20,253 nucleotides of DNA from a virus. How positions within the stretch are numbered: position 1 is the first letter of the stretch; every line of letters begins with the position of its first letter. A program made the position numbers and the translations under genes. The notes beneath the pieces were generated by a model that saw only the letters and a list, made by a program, of their open reading frames with translations, was not told where the DNA came from and searched no databases. Positions 2,529 to 20,253 of this stretch are shown here, one piece after another. Location: positions 1 through 20,253 of IMG/VR virus record IMGVR_UViG_3300007345_010388, one strand, 5' to 3'.

Positions 2529-2843
2529 ATGACAAACTCTACACAATTTAAATATAGAGTAGTTTTCTTTAAACAACCAACATGTGTTGCATGTGAAACT
2601 ATGAAGCCTATTTGGGTTGAGGTTGCAAATAAGATTTGCGAAGAGTACCCCCATTATAACGTTGGTTTTGGCGAATGGGACGTAACTTCTGATGACTGGG
2701 AATTCTGCGATAAGATCGAGTGCGACGGCACTCCTAACTTTGCAGTCTTTGATGAAGAAGGAGTTCTACTGGGAATTAATACTGAAGGAATGCTTGCAGC
2801 CGGGCAGCTAAAGGACTTCATAATTACCTCTATTGAGAAATGA
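2529..2843 (+). CDS. Thioredoxin-fold protein with CVAC redox motif
   Basis: A 104-residue protein of thioredoxin size. Residues 10-14 (RVVFF) look like the central beta strand, followed by QPTCVACETMKPIW, with the redox pair C19 and C22 in a CxxC motif at the start of helix alpha 2. GTPNFAVF (67-74) holds the cis-proline P69 expected opposite the active site. The normal WCGPC is replaced by TCVAC, so this is a divergent thioredoxin or glutaredoxin-like protein and its reduction partner is unknown. Phage thioredoxin-like proteins can act as reductants for ribonucleotide reductase or as polymerase accessory factors; neither partner is in this window. It is the first gene after an extended -10 promoter, and its stop overlaps the sigma-factor start (ATGA). 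The ribosome-binding site is weak. Confidence 0.8.
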   Translation: MTNSTQFKYRVVFFKQPTCVACETMKPIWVEVANKICEEYPHYNVGFGEWDVTSDDWEFCDKIECDGTPNFAVFDEEGVLLGINTEGMLAAGQLKDFIITSIEK

Positions 2844-3610
2844 AGCAAAGAACTAAGTCTAAGAGAGCAAGAGATAAACGCGATGAGCATATTATCTCTC
2901 AGATGTGGAAAGCAGACCAGGTTGCTAGAAAAATCTCGAATTTTACCGGGTTGCCATTTGAGGAGCTCAGAGATGCAGCGCTCGAGTATATTGTTCGTAT
3001 TTATGACACCTGGGATCAGAGCAAAGGGGCAAACTTTAGTACCTGGGTAAACAGGTGCTTGCAATTCCACATGCTCAATTATCTTAGAGATAGTTCTAGG
3101 CTCGTTAAGATGCCTCGTTCGTATTCCGATTTATATCTGAAGATCAGAAAATATCTCATTAAAAATCCTAATATCACCAATCAGGAAATTGCAGACGATT
3201 TAAAGATTCCTGTCAAGAAGGTCGATACTGTTCGCACAGCTTTTACAATGAGTTTTAATCCTGTTACGGAACAAAACTGCGTTATTGAAAGTTCCGAGAC
3301 AAACGAAATCGGATTTAATGAGTTACTTTCAAATCACAACGAGTTGTTGTTCAGGATTACTGACCTGGAGTCTAACGATGAAACTTTCTTGATTGACTAC
3401 CTTGTAAAGAAAAGATCAGTATCTACTCTTTTACGTAAAAACCCCCACCTTAAAAACATTGATGATATTAAGTCGTACTCGACTAAGCTAATTAACTACA
3501 TACTATGGGCAGACAAGTCGTTCGAGTCCTGGGACAAGACTATACAAAAACAGGGTTCGAGAAAAAGTGGTCAGAAGTCGTTAAAAACACAGAATGCAAC
3601 TACTTCGTAA
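2840..3610 (+). CDS. Phage sigma-70-family RNA polymerase sigma factor
   Basis: A 256-residue protein with the hallmarks of sigma region 2 at about residues 25-95: an acidic helix (FEELRDAALEYIVRIYDTWD), then a FSTW segment with R72, LNYLRD and LVKMPRS (66-94), which matches the core-binding and -10-contact helices of small alternative sigmas. A helix-turn-helix like region 3 follows (NPNITNQEIADDLKIPVKKV, 109-128). A clear region 4 is missing; residues 178-222 could be a degenerate one. It would redirect host RNA polymerase to phage promoters, probably late ones, as T4 gp55 does, though I cannot show it is a gp55 orthologue. It overlaps the thioredoxin gene by ATGA and is probably coupled to it. 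Its last 34 or so codons overlap the next gene in another frame and look like low-quality sequence, which suggests a run-on C-terminus. Confidence 0.75.
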   Translation: MKQRTKSKRARDKRDEHIISQMWKADQVARKISNFTGLPFEELRDAALEYIVRIYDTWDQSKGANFSTWVNRCLQFHMLNYLRDSSRLVKMPRSYSDLYLKIRKYLIKNPNITNQEIADDLKIPVKKVDTVRTAFTMSFNPVTEQNCVIESSETNEIGFNELLSNHNELLFRITDLESNDETFLIDYLVKKRSVSTLLRKNPHLKNIDDIKSYSTKLINYILWADKSFESWDKTIQKQGSRKSGQKSLKTQNATTS

Positions 3611-4206
3611 GATCGCCGGATTTTGAATTTGTCCACGAGGTGGTTGGTAAGATAGAGAAGTGGAAAACGCTTCATGAACGTAATGGCCTCAAGTACAAAA
3701 TAAGAAATAAGAAGTTTCAAGGTCGTGCTGTACGAGGAGTTGTGATGATAACTCCTAGGTCAAAAAGGGAAATCTGGTTGGGGAAAGGAAAAATAGTTGA
3801 AGAACTATTTCCCAGAACAAAGCCTCTGCCCGAATATAGGCAAAATAAAAAAGAAGCGCTGGCGGCTCTAAGACAAATTGTTGAGCCTCAGATTGTTTTA
3901 TATAGAAAATCTGTATTAAGACAGATAAAGCGCAAACCATTAAAATGTCCTATTTCAGCAGATTTTTTGGAAAATACAAGTTTTCATATAGATCACAAAT
4001 ATCCATTTAAAGATTTGGTGATAGAATGGTGCAGAGAAGAAAAAGTAGATCTTGAAAATATAGACGTTTATTGTAGGGGCACAAAATGCTATCTAAAAGA
4101 CACAACTCTTGCAGAGTCTTGGTTTGATTATCATATGATTAATGCAGAACTTCAAGCGTTAAGCGCAAAAGCAAATTTGCAAAAAGGTTCAAAATATTAT
4201 GGCTAA
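3505..4206 (+). CDS. Probable HNH-type nuclease, overlapping the sigma gene
   Basis: A 233-residue protein. The C-terminal half looks like a variant His-Me (HNH) finger: C148 in KCPI, then HIDHKYPF (H161, D163, H164), a W-x-x-YH element (H210), and KANLQKGSKYY with N224 and K227. The D-H, distant H, N-x-x-K order is that of HNH nucleases, but the sequence is unlike the other HNH enzyme in this window and lacks its repeats. The N-terminal half (residues 1-100) is basic and unrecognised and may bind DNA or RNA. The chosen ATG lies 106 bases inside the sigma gene, with no Shine-Dalgarno sequence. I keep it because residues 1-40 read as ordinary protein and the next in-frame ATG (3745) would lose 80 residues. 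The stop overlaps that of the convergent gene on the other strand. Confidence 0.6.
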   Translation: MGRQVVRVLGQDYTKTGFEKKWSEVVKNTECNYFVRSPDFEFVHEVVGKIEKWKTLHERNGLKYKIRNKKFQGRAVRGVVMITPRSKREIWLGKGKIVEELFPRTKPLPEYRQNKKEALAALRQIVEPQIVLYRKSVLRQIKRKPLKCPISADFLENTSFHIDHKYPFKDLVIEWCREEKVDLENIDVYCRGTKCYLKDTTLAESWFDYHMINAELQALSAKANLQKGSKYYG

Positions 4207-4820
4207 ATTGACCGAATATCATCATCAGCTAGATCTCTTTCATCAAAGGCTTCTTCAAAAAGTTCTTCTACTTTTTCTGCAATAATATCACCAATGCCTT
4301 GAGCAGTTTTATCGCTACTTAGCCAAGGCTTATTCTTATCAACTAGAGGAGCATACTTTACTTTATTCCCTATAGAATAAACTCCTTGAGTCCTCCTACG
4401 AACAAAATGTCCTGCATATAACTTACCGGTAATTCTTTTAATTCCTTCTTCGTTGTATCTTTGCTCCAAGTACTGGATGATCGGTGTTTCTGGGCCCTTT
4501 GTACTTAGAAATATATTAAGACGTTTTAATACATTCTCTACTACCACATTTATATTGTCTGAAGATTCGTCAAAGTCTACATCGAGCTCCATGTCTTGGA
4601 CGGCTTCTATGTATCCTTCAGAACGTTCCTTTACTTGGTCTAAAAAGTTTTGTGCTATTTGCTCTCCGATTAATGCTTTAACATCCTGCATCTGAGACTT
4701 GAGAGCAGCCTCTTTTATCCGCTCTCTTGCAGCATTTTTTACTTCATTTTTAAGAGAGTCTTTGATTCCATCGAGAGCTATTCCGATTATAAACTTAGAT
4801 AGGGCTTGGACTGGTATCAT
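4203..4820 (-). CDS. Small virion-associated protein, possibly tail-completion-like
   Basis: A 205-residue protein. I do not recognise a family with confidence. The first 75 residues are strongly helical and charged, likely a coiled coil. The C-terminal part contains NKVKYAPLVDKNKPWLS followed by a long acidic helix; a YAxxVD segment followed by a PWL-type turn and a terminal helix is reminiscent of HK97 gp10-type tail-completion proteins, but this is only a resemblance. The start codon overlaps the stop of the tail hub gene (ATGA at 4817-4820), so it is translationally coupled to the hub and is most likely a tail or baseplate component. No catalytic motif is visible. Its stop overlaps that of the HNH-type gene on the plus strand, leaving no room for a separate terminator. 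Confidence 0.6.
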   Translation of the reverse strand: MIPVQALSKFIIGIALDGIKDSLKNEVKNAARERIKEAALKSQMQDVKALIGEQIAQNFLDQVKERSEGYIEAVQDMELDVDFDESSDNINVVVENVLKRLNIFLSTKGPETPIIQYLEQRYNEEGIKRITGKLYAGHFVRRRTQGVYSIGNKVKYAPLVDKNKPWLSSDKTAQGIGDIIAEKVEELFEEAFDERDLADDDIRSI

Positions 4821-7800
4821 GATGGCTTAAGGCACTCAAGTACTTCACGAGCAAATTGTTGTCGATCATCTAAGACCGGCGTACCGGCTCTTTCATAAGC
4901 TGCTTCAAAAATTCTTGTTGCCTCGTTAGCACTATTTGTAGCATTTAATTGGCGGATCATCTCTTCGCCGCTTATGGCCCCTCCAAATTTATTATTCTTT
5001 ACTTCATATACAAACCAGGACATCTGAGTATTTATGCTTTTTGGATCACCGCCTATTTTTGCCGCGTATTGTTCAAGTGCTGCTTTTCTAGGTCCGTTCC
5101 ATTGAAATATACCCAGCTCCCCAGCGGCTCCTAAAGCCTGGGGATTTAAATAAACTCCATTTACACTTGATTCTTTTAACCCATTACCAAGAATTCCGGC
5201 TGTACCGGCTGCACTATTTATACCTAGTTGAGATGCCGCGTCGATTACTTTTTGAATATTAGTGGGATTATATTTACTACAGGTGTACTTAAATTTACCG
5301 GGAGGAAACTCTGATTTTACGTCATTTGCGCCAATTTGCCCAGGCTCTCTTCTTGCGCTTGAAGGTTTACCGCATTCATTGCATGAAAGTTTTCCGTCTT
5401 TTCTTTTGTAGCATAAATCACTAGGAGATCTAATATAGTCGTAGTAATCTGCATATTCGTAGTCTTGAAGGTACTCGCTAAATGTAGGCACTAGCCCCTC
5501 CCAGGTTTGATTCTGAGTAGTATCCGGCCTTCTAAGCGCATTAACAGTAACTTTTAGGTTTCCTTTTTCCCACTTCCACTCTGTTTCATTTACAAACCAA
5601 TTTCTATACTCATCTGGTACCCATACTCCAGGATCAACTTGAGTGTCATCTTTGCCTCCTTCTATCCAAGAATCATAGTCTGATACAAAAGACAGTACAG
5701 TTTTACCTGGTTCTATTTCTAGAGCCCTAGGAACTCCTTGAAACTCTGTTTTTAGTTGGAAACAAAATTTATCCTGAAGCGGCGCTGCGCCGCCACTTGA
5801 GACAGGACTTGAAGTAACTTTGTTGGCAACAGCGGGTATTAAGTCTGCTTTATCTGCTCCTTGAGGAGGGCTGGGGAGTAAGTGAGCTAATAAAAGTCCT
5901 TTGCCTCCTCCAATATCAAGAACGACATACGACCCATAGCCTCCTTTGCTACCAACGTCATTAACTTTAATATTAGGATTAGTTATATCTATAGGTTGGC
6001 CAATAATTCCTGCACCGACAATATCTACGCCTTCGTGCAACTTACCATTTCTTGGACCATAGGGAGAACCTGTTTCCCACTGAGATGGTTTTTTGCCACC
6101 TATGGTGATATAAGGATCTAGATCGGCAGCTGTAACTTTTGGAGATATATCGTTTTTAAAACCCACTCCAGTTAAAGTAGATATTTCTGCATGCAAGTGT
6201 GCCCCGTCTTTTCCTGGGGGATCGACGTTTCCGCTATATCCTACCCAACCCACTAATGTTTTTCCCTCGTTATCTCCAGAAGAGCTATCTGGCGCCTTAT
6301 CCTCTTGTTCTTTATCTTTGAGAGGCTCGGTGACAGACATTGTAAGCCTAACGGTTGCCGGAGTAATGGAAATTACAGAAGACTCTGCCTGAGGAGGTCT
6401 TATAAAGTATCTTGTTTTAGTTTGTTTATCCCCTGTCTGCACCTCTCCGACTTTAGCACCAATTTCTATATCATCTCCTTCTTTTACCTTTATACCCGAT
6501 AGAGACGTATACTCTTGATGTATGTAATAACGTTGTTCTTTGTTCTGAGCAGATAAATTTATAGTAAGCGTGCTTTTAACTACGACTCTTCCTTCTTCTT
6601 TAGATACAGTAGTAACTTTTCCTCCTAAATAAGACATGCCCTCTTTTGCATTTCCAAATGCTGCGTTCTTTTCTAGCTTTGTTATAGTAAATTTTTTACC
6701 TTTAGCCTCACCTTTAAATACAACTTTTGCTTGGTTACCAGTAGAGTAGTCTCCTATCTCATCAAATTGCCCCTCAAATTTAGTAAAAGCGTTTGAAGAG
6801 GCGGCATTTATTTTCTCTATTGTTTCGGTTACAGCGTTATTGTTATTTTTAGAAAATTTAAATTCTCCCTCGCCTACTTGGGCCAGGCCTGGCAGCGGTT
6901 CTGGGTTTTCAGGATCGCTTGTTTTAGGCCGAGACGTAGTAATATCAAATTCATTAATAGCGTACTCAGCATTTATACTATATTGCTTATATAAACCCTT
7001 ACCTAAATAAAACACTCTAGACGCCCTACAGCTATAATCTGTTTTATTACAAATCTGAATAACTTTAGCGTTTTCCGCCTTGGCAGAAATGTAGGCATCC
7101 ATAAACTCTTTTTCTCCGCTGTATTTTTGTAACAACTGCCCTGGAGAAAGAGCAGTGCTTTTATAGGACTTTTCAGAGACTTCGTCCTCGTCTTCTCCGC
7201 ATACAGACTCTATCTTATATCCAGATTTTGAAAATATTTTATCATTCAATTGTTTAAGGACCGGCTTTCCCTTCTCAAAGAAAACAGGTATAGTTTGATT
7301 AAAGTCTGTACTAAAAGCGTATTGCCCCCTCATTGTAACTTGAGGATATTTTGAACCATGGTCAATAGTTACTTTTGTGGCTTTAAAATATGTTTGAAAC
7401 TCTGAAGTTATTCCTATGCCCTCTATTTCATAATAAAGAGATATAATTATCCATCCCCTGTTTTCTGCTAGGTTAACAAGATCTGGATCGTCTATTGTAT
7501 CGTAAAAGGGATAACAAGGAGTGCTGTCTGGATCTTGGCCTTTTTCACATTTAGGTAAAAGTGTTCCTGCATTTTGATAAGCATTAAATCCGCTCATCAC
7601 TTGTGCCATGTTTCCAAGTACAGGCCAAGCAGCCCCGTCTAAATAGGGATCGTTAAGAGTTACAGTGCATTCGTTATCTTTGGTACTATATAGTAAATCA
7701 TCTAGCCCTCCGCTGGTATTTGTGTTAAACGTAGTAACATTCTGTTTTAATTTTACAGAGACAGAGTCTATCTGCCGTTCTGGAAAAACAATTACGTTTT

Positions 7801-7855
7801 TACTTTTTGCAGGTTTGAAAGCAACTTTTGCTCGGCACCTATATATGCTATTCAC
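4817..7855 (-). CDS. Tail hub protein with rearranged M23 peptidase and tail lysozyme domains
   Basis: A 1012-residue multidomain protein, likely the tip of the tail that docks on the baseplate and digests peptidoglycan during DNA entry. Residues 1-220 resemble tail-hub proteins of the gp27/gpD type (inferred from the pattern around YPQVTMRGQYAF). Residues about 405-585 form the C-terminal half of an M23 metallopeptidase: YYIHQEYTSLS, KVKEGDDIEIG, then AHLHAEI (552-558) and DLDPYI. Residues about 590-660 form the N-terminal half: YGPRNGKLHEGVD (metal ligands H607 and D611), GGYGSYVVLD and LLLAHL. The halves are therefore in reversed order. Residues 815-859 hold four cysteines, including CNEC. 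Residues 870-1010 match the phage tail lysozyme family: AAGTAGILGNGLKES with probable catalytic E895, then LGIFQWNGPR. The start is GTG; an in-frame stop lies four codons upstream. A GTTTAAAG motif begins 32 bases upstream. Confidence 0.85.
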   Translation of the reverse strand: MNSIYRCRAKVAFKPAKSKNVIVFPERQIDSVSVKLKQNVTTFNTNTSGGLDDLLYSTKDNECTVTLNDPYLDGAAWPVLGNMAQVMSGFNAYQNAGTLLPKCEKGQDPDSTPCYPFYDTIDDPDLVNLAENRGWIIISLYYEIEGIGITSEFQTYFKATKVTIDHGSKYPQVTMRGQYAFSTDFNQTIPVFFEKGKPVLKQLNDKIFSKSGYKIESVCGEDEDEVSEKSYKSTALSPGQLLQKYSGEKEFMDAYISAKAENAKVIQICNKTDYSCRASRVFYLGKGLYKQYSINAEYAINEFDITTSRPKTSDPENPEPLPGLAQVGEGEFKFSKNNNNAVTETIEKINAASSNAFTKFEGQFDEIGDYSTGNQAKVVFKGEAKGKKFTITKLEKNAAFGNAKEGMSYLGGKVTTVSKEEGRVVVKSTLTINLSAQNKEQRYYIHQEYTSLSGIKVKEGDDIEIGAKVGEVQTGDKQTKTRYFIRPPQAESSVISITPATVRLTMSVTEPLKDKEQEDKAPDSSSGDNEGKTLVGWVGYSGNVDPPGKDGAHLHAEISTLTGVGFKNDISPKVTAADLDPYITIGGKKPSQWETGSPYGPRNGKLHEGVDIVGAGIIGQPIDITNPNIKVNDVGSKGGYGSYVVLDIGGGKGLLLAHLLPSPPQGADKADLIPAVANKVTSSPVSSGGAAPLQDKFCFQLKTEFQGVPRALEIEPGKTVLSFVSDYDSWIEGGKDDTQVDPGVWVPDEYRNWFVNETEWKWEKGNLKVTVNALRRPDTTQNQTWEGLVPTFSEYLQDYEYADYYDYIRSPSDLCYKRKDGKLSCNECGKPSSARREPGQIGANDVKSEFPPGKFKYTCSKYNPTNIQKVIDAASQLGINSAAGTAGILGNGLKESSVNGVYLNPQALGAAGELGIFQWNGPRKAALEQYAAKIGGDPKSINTQMSWFVYEVKNNKFGGAISGEEMIRQLNATNSANEATRIFEAAYERAGTPVLDDRQQFAREVLECLKPS

Positions 7856-16973: not shown

Positions 16974-19900
16974 TTAAACGACGGGAACATCAAACAAGTC
17001 TATGGTTATCCTACTCGAGTTTAATTCTCTTAATTTTGTTTTTAATGGGTCCTCTGCTCCACCGGAAAGAGTATCAAAGATATCGTTTAACTGCCAATTA
17101 CTATAAGTTCCTGCAGAGATATCTGGTTTTGTTGCTTTAAGTTTTATTCTGAGATCTCTTAGTCTATTATCACCCATAATTTCATATACATCATAAGCGT
17201 CTTGAATAATTCTTCTGATAGACAATCTACTTAGCGGATTATTTTCTAAGTTAATGGTTACTATTTCTGCTCTACCTGTAAACCCAGCATTTGAAGCTCC
17301 TGTTATATTTTGAAGGGTCCCCGTCCTATAACAAGTAAGCAAATTACTTTGTAAATCTAAAGTTCTTAACCTTCCCTGCCCAGTGTTTTTAAAATTAGGA
17401 ATAAAGCCGCCTAAAGAGCAATCCTTCATGTAAATATACTCTACATTAGGACATCCGTTAAAGAACCCATCGCATTCAATGGCCTTTCTTCTAAAAGTAA
17501 CAGATGTGTCTGAACTATAATTTAATGTTATACCTTCTCCTGTAGAGTTTGCTCCTACTACTACAATATACTCGTAGCTAGGATCTTCATTAAATACGGA
17601 TCCAACTCTGCCTTTTAGTTGCCCACCAATATACACTTCATCACCGACTCGAACATATTTTTGCAAGTTAGTAACGCCTGCAGTTTTAAGAAGTATATTT
17701 CCAGCAGATTGCGGGGCTCCTTTATAAGCCCTAGATTTAAATGTAGTAGAGCCTGAAACCCACTGTTCTTGTGAAATATTCCCGTACTCAGAGGTAGTAC
17801 TCTTGTCATCCCAGTTTAATGGCGCAAGAGCACTAAACACTGGCTTATTTTGCTTAGACGTATCTTGTGCCCAGCTTGATGGATACTTCGAAAGTAGAGA
17901 ATCTGTTGTATAGAATCTTTTTAATATAGTGCTTCCGCTATTAATATTTAATGGGGCCATGTCTGGAACAATTGCTCCACCAACGTTTGTTCCAGAATAC
18001 CTGATATAGATTTCCTGTACTCTTTTTGTTGATTTCACAGATAAAGCGCTTAGATCAAAGAATCTATTATTGTCAGCGCGCATTCTAAGCGCTAACGACT
18101 CACTTGCGCCCTGGGCTACTCCTGGAATTCTGGGGAAACGTCCTGACCAGCGCCCTGAGCTAATCGAAAGAAAAGCCATTTTAGTAAGCTTATCAAAGTC
18201 GTTATACCTAAACTTCATTTCATAATTTCTATTATTATTGATTTCTAAGGCCCTAATTACGGTCTCTGTAGTAGGGTGGAAGAAATTGAGCGGAAATATA
18301 TATTTACCGGGTTCATTGGCTCCTGTGCCTCCCTGCGAGATTGAAAGACTACCTTCTGCGTAGCCCTCCCAATCAATTGCGCCAATATTTATATAATCTA
18401 ATTTTGGGCAATCTTTAACGCTAAATAGTCTGCCGGTCCATCCACTGTTAAAAGAAACAATCGTTCTTAATTCCGACGCTTTTACAAAATCGTTCGAGTC
18501 GGTTGTGGTGGTAGTCGTACCAGGATTATATCTAATTTTTCTTTCTGGTCCATGAGCCCTAGTGTAAGTAAGATTCAATGATTCTAGTTTTTGCCAAATA
18601 AGAGAAGATCCTGTTGCTAAGTTAAAAGCTATGTCGGTTTGGACGAAATCAATAACTTTAGCGTTAGTCAACCAGCCGGACCATGCCGTTGCCGCGCTAG
18701 TAGCTGCGTGACTGTATCTATTAAGAGCCGTTCCTCCGATAGTATCTGTGACGTTCATAACGCGTGCGGTGGTATTGGCCGGTTCGTTAATATTTCCAAC
18801 CATTGTATCATCTGTGCAAATGCCTCCAGCAAAGTTATTACTGTTGTAACCTAGATGGTCGACATTCCATGTAATTACTTTAAATTGTCCTATGAATTGT
18901 TGTTGTTGATCGGCTGTATCTCCAGATGCCCATTGAATATTATCGCCGACATCCCGCATACTCCCACCAACTTGTGTCTGCCAAGAATAGTTTATCGAAA
19001 ACTCCTGGTTGTTATTATTTAATTTAGGAATATTTCCGTATAGGTTTTTAACCCCGCTTTGAGATGTTGATATATCTATCTCTCCAAGATTGGGGAAAAT
19101 AACAGAAAAATCTGGATTTGCAACTTTAAACCTTGAGCCTAATCTCAATATCCTTAGAGCAGTAAATCTTCTGATACCATTTGCAAGACCTGCTGCTCCG
19201 GTAAATGAGCCGTTATTGCCAGGGTTTAATCTTGTTTGATGGAGGAGGTGGCTTCCGGCCGTTGCAGTTGATAAAGTTCCGTCATACGAAGCTTTCTTTA
19301 CTCCGCCACCGCCTGCTTCAAATCCGCTATATGCTAGTATCTGTACCCCGGTCTGAATGGGAATGTTGGTGCTATTGTAGCTATTATATAGGTTTGGGTT
19401 AGTTTGCCAGTCGAACCATTCAATAATACCTTGGTCCCAAAATCTATTACCACGCAAATCTAGTTCTTCTAAAGTAAAGTGGTTTACCTTTAGCCACGTA
19501 GGAATGGTGGAAAGTTTATTATTCCGACAAGAAAATACTTTTAAGTTGTCGAACCCAAGTAAGCCTAGATCAGGAGTATTATCGTCCTCTTCTATTCCTA
19601 GTCCTTCCAACCTTAATTCCTCTACAATAAAAGGAGCACAATAGATATATAAATAAGCATCCTGGTTATTTCCAGTCTTTCCGGTGGTATTTATACTTCT
19701 AGTCATTGTGTTTCTAGAAGCTTCTAGAGAATCATTAAAAGTTTCTCCTATAATTTTATAATTATCGCTTTTTCTTCTAAGCTCGTATCCAAAATAATAT
19801 GGAGAAGGAGCGTTCCGAGTAAAGATTGTAAAGCTTGCAGAGTTGTTAATCTTAACTGGGACTCTTAGCGGAGAGTTTTTAGAGGCAAGAGCGTCTACAA

Positions 19901-20253
19901 CCTGCAACGAAGGACTAGACGTGTTAGGCGTTTGCATATAAACGGGAACCTTCACAATATTTGTAGGGCTTTCCGTAATACCGCCTTTAGGAACAAATAA
20001 ATTTTTTGCTAATTTGAGACTAGAGTAGTGGCCTCTTCTTCTTACTCTTAGGGTTCCTCCATAGGAAGCATTAGTATATCTTCCATTTGTGTCTCTTTCT
20101 GCATTAAATAAACTTTCTCTAGAGGTAGATACTGTTGCTGTCGAAAGGTTTCCTTTTTTGTCTTTAAATTTATATTCTATTGCGTTAGCGGCTATTCCGC
20201 CATGAAGCATTATAATGTTATCAGAGTACTCGGAAGTAAGAAGGCTGCTTTTA
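16974..20253 (-). CDS. Leucine-rich-repeat-containing virion protein, 5' end beyond the window
   Basis: The frame is open to the right edge. An ATG at 20210 gives 1078 residues, but codons upstream of it read as normal protein (SSLLTSEYSDNII) and the ATG has no Shine-Dalgarno sequence, so the gene probably starts outside. Numbering from 20210, residues 195-260 contain convincing leucine-rich repeats: VEELRLEGLGI, DNLKVFSCRNNKLSTIP and LEELDLRGNRF. More scattered LRR-like units occur at 350-360 (ALRILRLGSRF), near 545 (LESLNLTYT) and at 948-985 (LRTLDLQSNLLT, VTINLENNPLS). Between them lies Ser/Thr/Asn/Gly-rich sequence typical of virion proteins. An irregular LRR solenoid on a phage particle suggests a receptor-binding or adhesion role. 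No enzymatic motif, signal peptide or membrane segment is visible. It is followed by the 650-aa virion gene. Confidence 0.75.
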   Translation of the reverse strand, partial: KSSLLTSEYSDNIIMLHGGIAANAIEYKFKDKKGNLSTATVSTSRESLFNAERDTNGRYTNASYGGTLRVRRRGHYSSLKLAKNLFVPKGGITESPTNIVKVPVYMQTPNTSSPSLQVVDALASKNSPLRVPVKINNSASFTIFTRNAPSPYYFGYELRRKSDNYKIIGETFNDSLEASRNTMTRSINTTGKTGNNQDAYLYIYCAPFIVEELRLEGLGIEEDDNTPDLGLLGFDNLKVFSCRNNKLSTIPTWLKVNHFTLEELDLRGNRFWDQGIIEWFDWQTNPNLYNSYNSTNIPIQTGVQILAYSGFEAGGGGVKKASYDGTLSTATAGSHLLHQTRLNPGNNGSFTGAAGLANGIRRFTALRILRLGSRFKVANPDFSVIFPNLGEIDISTSQSGVKNLYGNIPKLNNNNQEFSINYSWQTQVGGSMRDVGDNIQWASGDTADQQQQFIGQFKVITWNVDHLGYNSNNFAGGICTDDTMVGNINEPANTTARVMNVTDTIGGTALNRYSHAATSAATAWSGWLTNAKVIDFVQTDIAFNLATGSSLIWQKLESLNLTYTRAHGPERKIRYNPGTTTTTTDSNDFVKASELRTIVSFNSGWTGRLFSVKDCPKLDYINIGAIDWEGYAEGSLSISQGGTGANEPGKYIFPLNFFHPTTETVIRALEINNNRNYEMKFRYNDFDKLTKMAFLSISSGRWSGRFPRIPGVAQGASESLALRMRADNNRFFDLSALSVKSTKRVQEIYIRYSGTNVGGAIVPDMAPLNINSGSTILKRFYTTDSLLSKYPSSWAQDTSKQNKPVFSALAPLNWDDKSTTSEYGNISQEQWVSGSTTFKSRAYKGAPQSAGNILLKTAGVTNLQKYVRVGDEVYIGGQLKGRVGSVFNEDPSYEYIVVVGANSTGEGITLNYSSDTSVTFRRKAIECDGFFNGCPNVEYIYMKDCSLGGFIPNFKNTGQGRLRTLDLQSNLLTCYRTGTLQNITGASNAGFTGRAEIVTINLENNPLSRLSIRRIIQDAYDVYEIMGDNRLRDLRIKLKATKPDISAGTYSNWQLNDIFDTLSGGAEDPLKTKLRELNSSRITIDLFDVPVV

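Follow-up and report, generated by a model that had tools for sequence, protein, structure and literature searches.

M23 enzymes are a very common family of cell-wall peptidases, and their annotation relies on a fixed order of motifs. The locus described here raises the question of how such a domain is to be read when, in a phage virion protein, the motifs that usually end it stand ahead of those that usually begin it. The motifs lie in a minus-strand gene of the window, by which we mean the whole stretch of DNA that was analysed (20,253 nucleotides), and the encoded protein, hereafter the carrier, was divided as follows.

4817..7855 (-): whole carrier, 1012 aa with a GTG start; a virion structural protein homologous to S-TIM5 gp111
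6866..7855 (-): residues 1-330, N-terminal scaffold, no family match
6323..6679 (-): residues 393-511, complete degenerate M23/LytM fold in normal order, without zinc ligands, holding YIHQEY and GDDIEIG
6104..6256 (-): residues 534-584, permuted M23, C-part (LVGWVGYSG..GAHLHAEI..DPYI)
6068..6103 (-): residues 585-596, linker IGGKKPSQWETG, connecting what are usually the two termini, C to N
5861..6067 (-): residues 597-665, permuted M23, N-part (SPYGPR..HEGVD..GYGSYVVLD..LLAHL)
5402..5770 (-): residues 696-818, second scaffold part
4835..5260 (-): residues 866-1007, Phage_lysozyme2 (PF18013), E 3.1e-23

The source of the carrier is a marine cyanophage related to the genus Aurunvirus. Over its full length the protein was 58-60% identical to its homologues in the Aurunvirus cyanophages S-TIM5, S-TIM61, and S-TIM66 and 36-37% identical to that of S-TIM54, and the surrounding gene order (PhoH, structural proteins, carrier, a ~205-aa protein, sigma factor, terminase) was that of S-TIM5. 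The S-TIM5 record labels the homologue only "virion structural protein and packaging". At the limits applied, searches of Pfam, NCBIfam, and PHROGs found no hub family for the carrier, the NCBIfam search of the whole protein gave no match, and a hub-like function of the N-terminal scaffold is assumed. The C-terminal lysozyme domain scored 83 bits against a curated cut-off of 28.2 and matched the phi29 gp13 lysozyme (3csr). Elsewhere in the window, positions 16974-20210 (-) encode a phage protein of 1078 aa that carries leucine-rich repeats (Pfam LRR_1, E 1.2e-5), which is odd for a gene of the virion region, and a small thioredoxin-like gene (PF00085, E 1.6e-6) at 2529-2840 (+) adjoins the terminase gene, at a place where S-TIM5 has a hypothetical gene of equal length. 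A reading frame of 233 aa at 3505-4203 (+), with the HNH-like motif FHIDHKYPF, lies partly over the end of the sigma factor gene, in a different frame, and had no Pfam or PHROG match.

Order of the motifs and extent of the unit

Re-reading of the sequence located YIHQEY, GDDIEIG, AHLHAEI, DPYI, HEGVD, GGYGSYVVLD, and LLAHL, in this order, within residues 405-660 (window 5876-6643, minus strand), and thus confirmed the motifs named in a preliminary description of this DNA and the placement of the C-terminal M23 part ahead of the N-terminal part. The same reversed order was present in all four cultured cyanophages (S-TIM5, S-TIM61, S-TIM66, and S-TIM54) and in 35/35 IMG/VR frames containing the C-part (a pattern identified 30, and reading of the sequence the other 5), a set that includes near-duplicates and one frame (L049) that leaves its contig before AHL; 8 more IMG/VR frames were partial, lacked the C-part, and were uninformative on order. 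Because the order is common to cultured phages and many contigs, an assembly artefact is ruled out, and the order is no product of chance.

The C-part and N-part were scanned against Pfam as separate pieces. For L014, the first and second pieces matched Pfam M23 with E values of 5.5e-6 and 3.3e-5, respectively; the corresponding values were 8.2e-4 and 4.9e-5 for L009 and 1.7e-5 and 3.1e-3 for L032. The first piece covered M23 profile positions 65-87 (66-87 and 67-89 in two of the three) and the second covered positions 2-54. Both parts were recognisable as M23 in these three homologues, whereas the window's own pieces, scanned alone, gave no Pfam M23 match at E<=10. With the whole carrier as query, residues 586-659 weakly matched a PHROG metallo-endopeptidase (0.0024) and residues 590-648 weakly matched 9gy1 (0.058). 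A profile of the unit, built from 22 sequences with the window first, matched 30 PDB sequences at E<=0.01, with 3slu_A best (E 8.4e-16). This match was crossed, profile positions 59-122 aligning to chain residues 240-297 and positions 3-37 to residues 307-341, and crossed stretches in the same sense were found in 5/5 alignments listed (3slu, 6muk, 9gy1, 9m7n, and 5j1l). Since the profile meets solved M23 enzymes in two crossed stretches, the arrangement is a true circular permutation, and since the 3slu stretches stop at 297 and start at 307, the cut lies in the loop between. As far as sequence can establish it, these results show a layout of M23 profile positions 65-87, a short linker, and then positions 2-54; the chain is opened in the loop normally found after the AHL strand, and a GGK..S..(T)S.YG linker connects the usual ends. 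The circular permutation of the preliminary description is strongly supported by the Pfam pieces, the crossed profile matches, the co-variation of the two parts, and the alignments that span the linker.

The permuted domain comprises residues ~534-665 alone, and the region before it, residues 393-511, proved to be a separate M23. Residues 422-479 matched Pfam M23 positions 22-79 in normal order with an E value of 2.6e-4, under the curated cut-off. A structure prediction of residues 385-700 was made from 19 aligned sequences (mean pLDDT 69.8, pTM 0.46), and in a comparison with solved structures its residues 9-127, which are protein residues 393-511, matched complete M23/LytM folds. The matches were to SpoIIQ 3tuf_B (Z 10.9, 97 residues, rmsd 2.7, with a model range up to 316 that includes some residues outside the domain), ShyA 6ue4_A (Z 10.8, 95 residues, rmsd 2.7), DipM 7qrl_C (Z 10.7, 102 residues, rmsd 3.3), and StM23 9gy1 (Z 10.3, 95 residues, rmsd 2.8). 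The domain has RYFI at the position of the HLHFE strand, and no HxxxD motif was found anywhere N-terminal to the C-part in the 35 IMG/VR frames. Among 27 homologues (the window, the four S-TIM phages, and 22 IMG/VR proteins, near-duplicates and fragments being left out), H446 of YIHQEY was kept in 7, and the domain evolved along with the scaffold. We conclude that residues 393-511, like SpoIIQ and EnvC, represent a degenerate M23; the role of this ligand-less domain is probably structural.

These results change the earlier account of the region. Residues 405-530 had been taken as belonging to the second half of the enzyme, which is ruled out by a whole, ligand-less fold at 393-511 in normal order (Z 10.9 to 3tuf_B) that evolves with the scaffold. 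A central hairpin is indeed present in both pieces, but the first hairpin belongs to that separate fold. An origin by duplication of the domain within the carrier and loss of the outer halves was left unsupported, since the permuted unit also occurs in other architectures (P60 gp33, tape measure proteins, and stand-alone proteins) and so need not stem from the neighbouring M23. In a subgroup of homologues the first and the permuted M23 are separated by an insert of ~200 aa (L022:5046-5747, L029:5061-5795, L050:6046-6732, L039:6022-6729, L044:6031-6726, and L024:5055-5714). It carries conserved GH..D, E, H, and E residues and resembles an amidase by motif, but neither search made with it supports a family: of five inserts scanned with Pfam, a single one reached Amidase_3, at E 0.08, and with a six-insert profile no PDB chain was matched at E<=1.

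Site residues, predicted structure, and exchange of the unit

The residues expected to form the site, among them H658 of AHL, which we take to be the catalytic residue, were compared across the 27 homologues.

6197..6199 (-): H553, first His of HxH, 27/27 homologues
6191..6193 (-): H555, expected zinc ligand, 25/27 (L015 and L059 have Asp)
6035..6037 (-): H607, expected zinc ligand, 25/27
6023..6025 (-): D611, expected zinc ligand, 27/27 homologues
5882..5884 (-): H658 of AHL, expected catalytic His, 27/27 homologues

L035 and L039 have Tyr in the H607 column and His two residues earlier, giving H(x)5D. The accessible text of an M23 review (PMC9662197) gives the zinc ligands of the family as H(x)nD, with varying spacing, plus the second His of HxH, and describes the first His of HxH as a non-ligand proposed to coordinate and activate. 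The unit stretch of the homologues was otherwise merely 26-44% identical to that of the window, and retention of the site residues in 25-27 of the 27 within so diverged a stretch suggests selection on the site. As a side observation, many permuted M23s, as well as some bacterial M23s of normal order, have HLD where HLH is usual (L015, L059, L067, L073, L077, L080, and L081 are those listed). Changed first-ligand motifs (HxAHD or HLGHD in place of HxGxD) were seen in some permuted proteins of ~220 aa, including L102, L126, L160, L177, L179, and L193, and the sites of these proteins are perhaps shifted or lost.

Residues 526-690 alone gave a compact single-chain prediction (pLDDT 78.8, pTM 0.78, 22 sequences), and this model favours a site within one chain. 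Foldseek found nothing for the unit model in the PDB at E<=0.001, and no M23 was among the best 50 matches listed. In a second structure comparison three M23 enzymes stood on top with weak scores (Z 4.0-4.5, 77-81 residues, 22-29% identity); the rmsd values were 2.3 for 9gy1 (77 residues, best Z of 4.5, model residues 55-150), 2.4 for 6muk, and 3.4 for 4rnz, and 9gy1 and 6muk superposed on the N-part alone. Low scores are to be expected for a permuted fold from aligners bound to chain order, although the matches are still weak on their face; the missing Foldseek match is no evidence for a different fold. Against a viral library, four predictions matched the unit model at E<=0.001, namely S-TIM5's own protein, A0A510E7V3, the P60 internal virion protein, and a tape measure fragment; the last two aligned over 139 and 147 columns with rmsd values of 4.6 and 4.7, respectively.

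Comparisons of closely related phages placed the two parts within one exchanged stretch. The S-TIM5 and S-TIM66 genes were 97-100% identical in DNA except at bases ~1561-2014, where identity fell to 0.33-0.62 per 60-base block with a border block at 0.90, and L012 and L015 were 0.33-0.78 identical at ~1618-2070 and 0.85-1.00 identical elsewhere; in both pairs the stretch corresponds to roughly residues 521-690. The scaffold, first M23, and lysozyme of L032 and L035 were 0.98-0.99 identical and the two parts 0.53 and 0.57, whereas L009 and L014, only 0.33 identical in the N-terminal scaffold, shared 0.77 and 0.68 identity in the two parts. Partial Mantel tests on pairwise identities (27 proteins, 351 pairs, scaffold regressed out) gave a correlation of the C-part with the N-part (r 0.735, p 2e-4); neither part correlated with the first M23 (r 0.002, p 0.47, and r 0.022, p 0.35, respectively) or with the lysozyme (r -0.07 and -0.11). 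These data show that phages inherit and swap the C-part and N-part together, as a single cassette. The cassette form was the same in S-TIM5 (isolated on WH8102) and S-TIM61 (CC9605) and different in S-TIM66 (CC9605), so the variant does not simply track the isolation host. The C-terminal lysozyme-like ~120 aa were swapped separately in the pairs L019/L029 and L022/L030, which are ~90-100% identical elsewhere, making the carrier a virion protein with two independently swapped enzyme parts.

The reversed order in other phage proteins

The order was also found outside the carrier family. P60 gp33 of a Synechococcus phage has the C-part (GPHLDV) and then the N-part at its end, behind a Phage_lysozyme2 match, and reversed order together with HLD was found in the tape measure protein of Acinetobacter phage YMC11/11/R3177, the tail protein of Moraxella phage Mcat23, and proteins of the Synechococcus phages S-EIVl, DSL-LC07, and S-CBP1. 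The profile aligned without a break across C-part, linker, and N-part in L171 (79 bits), Mcat23 (48), the Acinetobacter locus L174 (48), S-CBP1 (35), DSL-LC07 (32), L198 (32), and P60 (25); in S-EIVl it covered positions 17-87 only (13 bits), and low scores of 9-18 bits were obtained for L179, L087, L202, and L136. All eight phage M23 controls of normal order (Thermus P74-26, ArV2, StauST398-4, ACG-2014f, Syn1, XC31, MT836505, and MT836188) split into crossed stretches with the N-part first, some of the half-matches being weak (E 0.06-0.12). The linker itself aligned, the profile 'ggkklsswevtsgyg' against GGKPLSSYKISSNYG in L174, and a single origin of the permutation may be argued from the shared linker only. 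A tblastn search with the P60 unit returned 5 phage records and 2 IMG/VR loci only.

A scan of viral contigs for the HLD motif gave at least 120 loci, highly redundant. Among the matches listed, the N-part lay downstream of HLD in at least 101 and upstream in at least 1, with at least 18 unclassified; by motif, the same loci had HxGxD downstream in at least 103, a changed H..D in at least 8, a truncation in at least 8, and another arrangement in at least 1. Many of the listed loci are tape measures of the Acinetobacter type, and many are proteins of ~220 aa that consist mostly of the unit. After clustering at 60%, with windows of 110 aa or less dropped, at least 8 clusters among the matches listed look permuted and L146 does not. 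In genome contigs, 38 in-frame TGPHLDVR sites (43 stretches) were sorted by a first classifier into 10 with the N-terminal motif upstream (the usual order), 2 with it downstream, and 26 with none. A stricter motif check gave 9 upstream and 2 downstream, both of the latter in Acinetobacter genomes. The sites of normal order mean that H-L-D is no mark of permutation. The spread of the permuted M23 among phages is unexpectedly wide.

Proposed role, competing readings, and known systems

We hold it very probable that one explanation covers the whole, namely that residues ~534-665 form a permuted M23, inherited as a single cassette and acting as a single-chain zinc peptidase that cuts peptidoglycan, with the first M23 structural. 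The C-part and N-part would fold together within one chain, H607, D611, and H555 would bind one zinc, H553 and H658 would assist catalysis, and the domain would cut the peptide cross-links of peptidoglycan as the tail opens the cell. The unit most likely serves as a zinc peptidase that opens peptidoglycan during infection.

An arrangement of two ordinary tandem M23s, in which an insertion has set the C-part, as last strand, apart from the rest of 393-511 and a second, truncated M23 supplies the N-part, would fit an M23 fold that sits ahead of the C-part and whose hairpin Pfam places at profile positions 22-79. That fold, however, matches complete M23s without any help from the C-part (model residues 9-127), and the C-part co-varies with the N-part (r 0.735) and not with the first M23 (0.002, 0.022). 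Moreover, the ~200-aa domain parts the first M23 from the C-part in L019, L022, L024, L029, L030, L039, L044, and L050, and the unit is found in proteins of other make-up, some of ~220 aa. Two divergent tandem M23s are rejected on the co-variation, the complete first fold, the inserts, and the stand-alone units, and we give them hardly any credence. The preliminary description had also considered a site built between the subunits of a trimer; in such a trimer, or in a ring, the C-part of one chain would complete the N-part of the next. The trimeric state common among tail hubs was counted in favour of this, and domain swapping is compatible with the order alone. We nevertheless judge such a site very unlikely, as the unit alone is predicted to be compact as one chain (pTM 0.78) and occurs in short stand-alone proteins and at the ends of internal virion proteins, which need not trimerise.

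It is improbable, although less so than either of these, that the unit is a domain of M23 descent that lacks peptidase activity and serves in binding or structure, or that it acts on another substrate. M23s without the ligand set mostly act in protein-protein contacts, according to the accessible text of PMC9662197, H555 is Asp in 2/27 hub-type proteins, and permuted proteins outside the family have HLD. A changed substrate is kept open mainly through the precedent of the permuted NlpC/P60 group, which acts on lipids and not on peptidoglycan in the account available from PMC12994826. On the other side, H553, D611, and H658 are kept in 27/27 homologues and H607 and H555 in 25/27, in a stretch 26-44% identical to that of the window, and a lysozyme domain lies in the same protein. 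HLD also occurs in normal-order bacterial M23s (9 loci with HxGxD upstream), so Asp need not mean loss.

For the permuted peptidase, we lean towards a history in which one permutation founded a virion-borne class of phage enzymes that moved as a cassette among tail hub-like, tape measure, ejection (internal virion), and stand-alone proteins; the new ends after the AHL strand would permit plugging into structural proteins, and an HxD site would now be common. Pfam sees the permuted branch merely as fragments, so phage virion lysins have probably been missed or mis-annotated. Permuted M23s are natural domains tolerant of new ends, and the clean natural swaps of one enzyme cassette between near-identical phages offer a way to test whether tail-enzyme variants are selected by host peptidoglycan or by another factor.

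No permuted M23 was found in the literature (open-licence full texts), and the stem "permut" is absent from the accessible text of the M23 review PMC9662197. On the accessible texts of PMC6403190 and PMC12994826, NlpC/P60 (YaeF/LRAT) comes closest as an earlier case of permutation in a wall-hydrolase fold; it differs from the unit in being an unrelated cysteine peptidase fold whose permutation was accompanied by a shift to lipid substrates. The closest relatives are the YMC11/11/R3177 tape measure protein and P60 gp33, which have the same permuted M23 unit and a similar linker but HLD in place of HLH and other carriers, recorded as tape measure and as virion structural or internal virion protein. 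The M23 family PF01551 (3slu NMB0315, 9gy1 StM23, LytM, and lysostaphin) shares the H(x)3D, GxPV/I, GYG..V, AHL, VGxTG..GPHLHxE, and DPY elements; the unit differs in its reversed part order, an open loop at profile ~55-64, and a new linker between the usual ends. It has the kinship motifs H607xGxD611 and H553-L-H555 but not the canonical chain order of H(x)nD before HxH. SpoIIQ, EnvC, and Csd2, which are degenerate LytM proteins, have their fold in common with domain 393-511 (Z 9.1-10.9) and likewise miss the full ligand set, whereas domain 393-511 lies within a phage virion protein and has no known partner. The tail-tip protein phi29 gp13 (3csq) resembles the carrier in having both a Phage_lysozyme2-type domain and an M23 within a single virion protein. 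The parts of that M23 stand in the usual order and, unlike the carrier, gp13 has no second M23; the motif of that M23 is H(x)7D, as given in the accessible text of PMC9662197.
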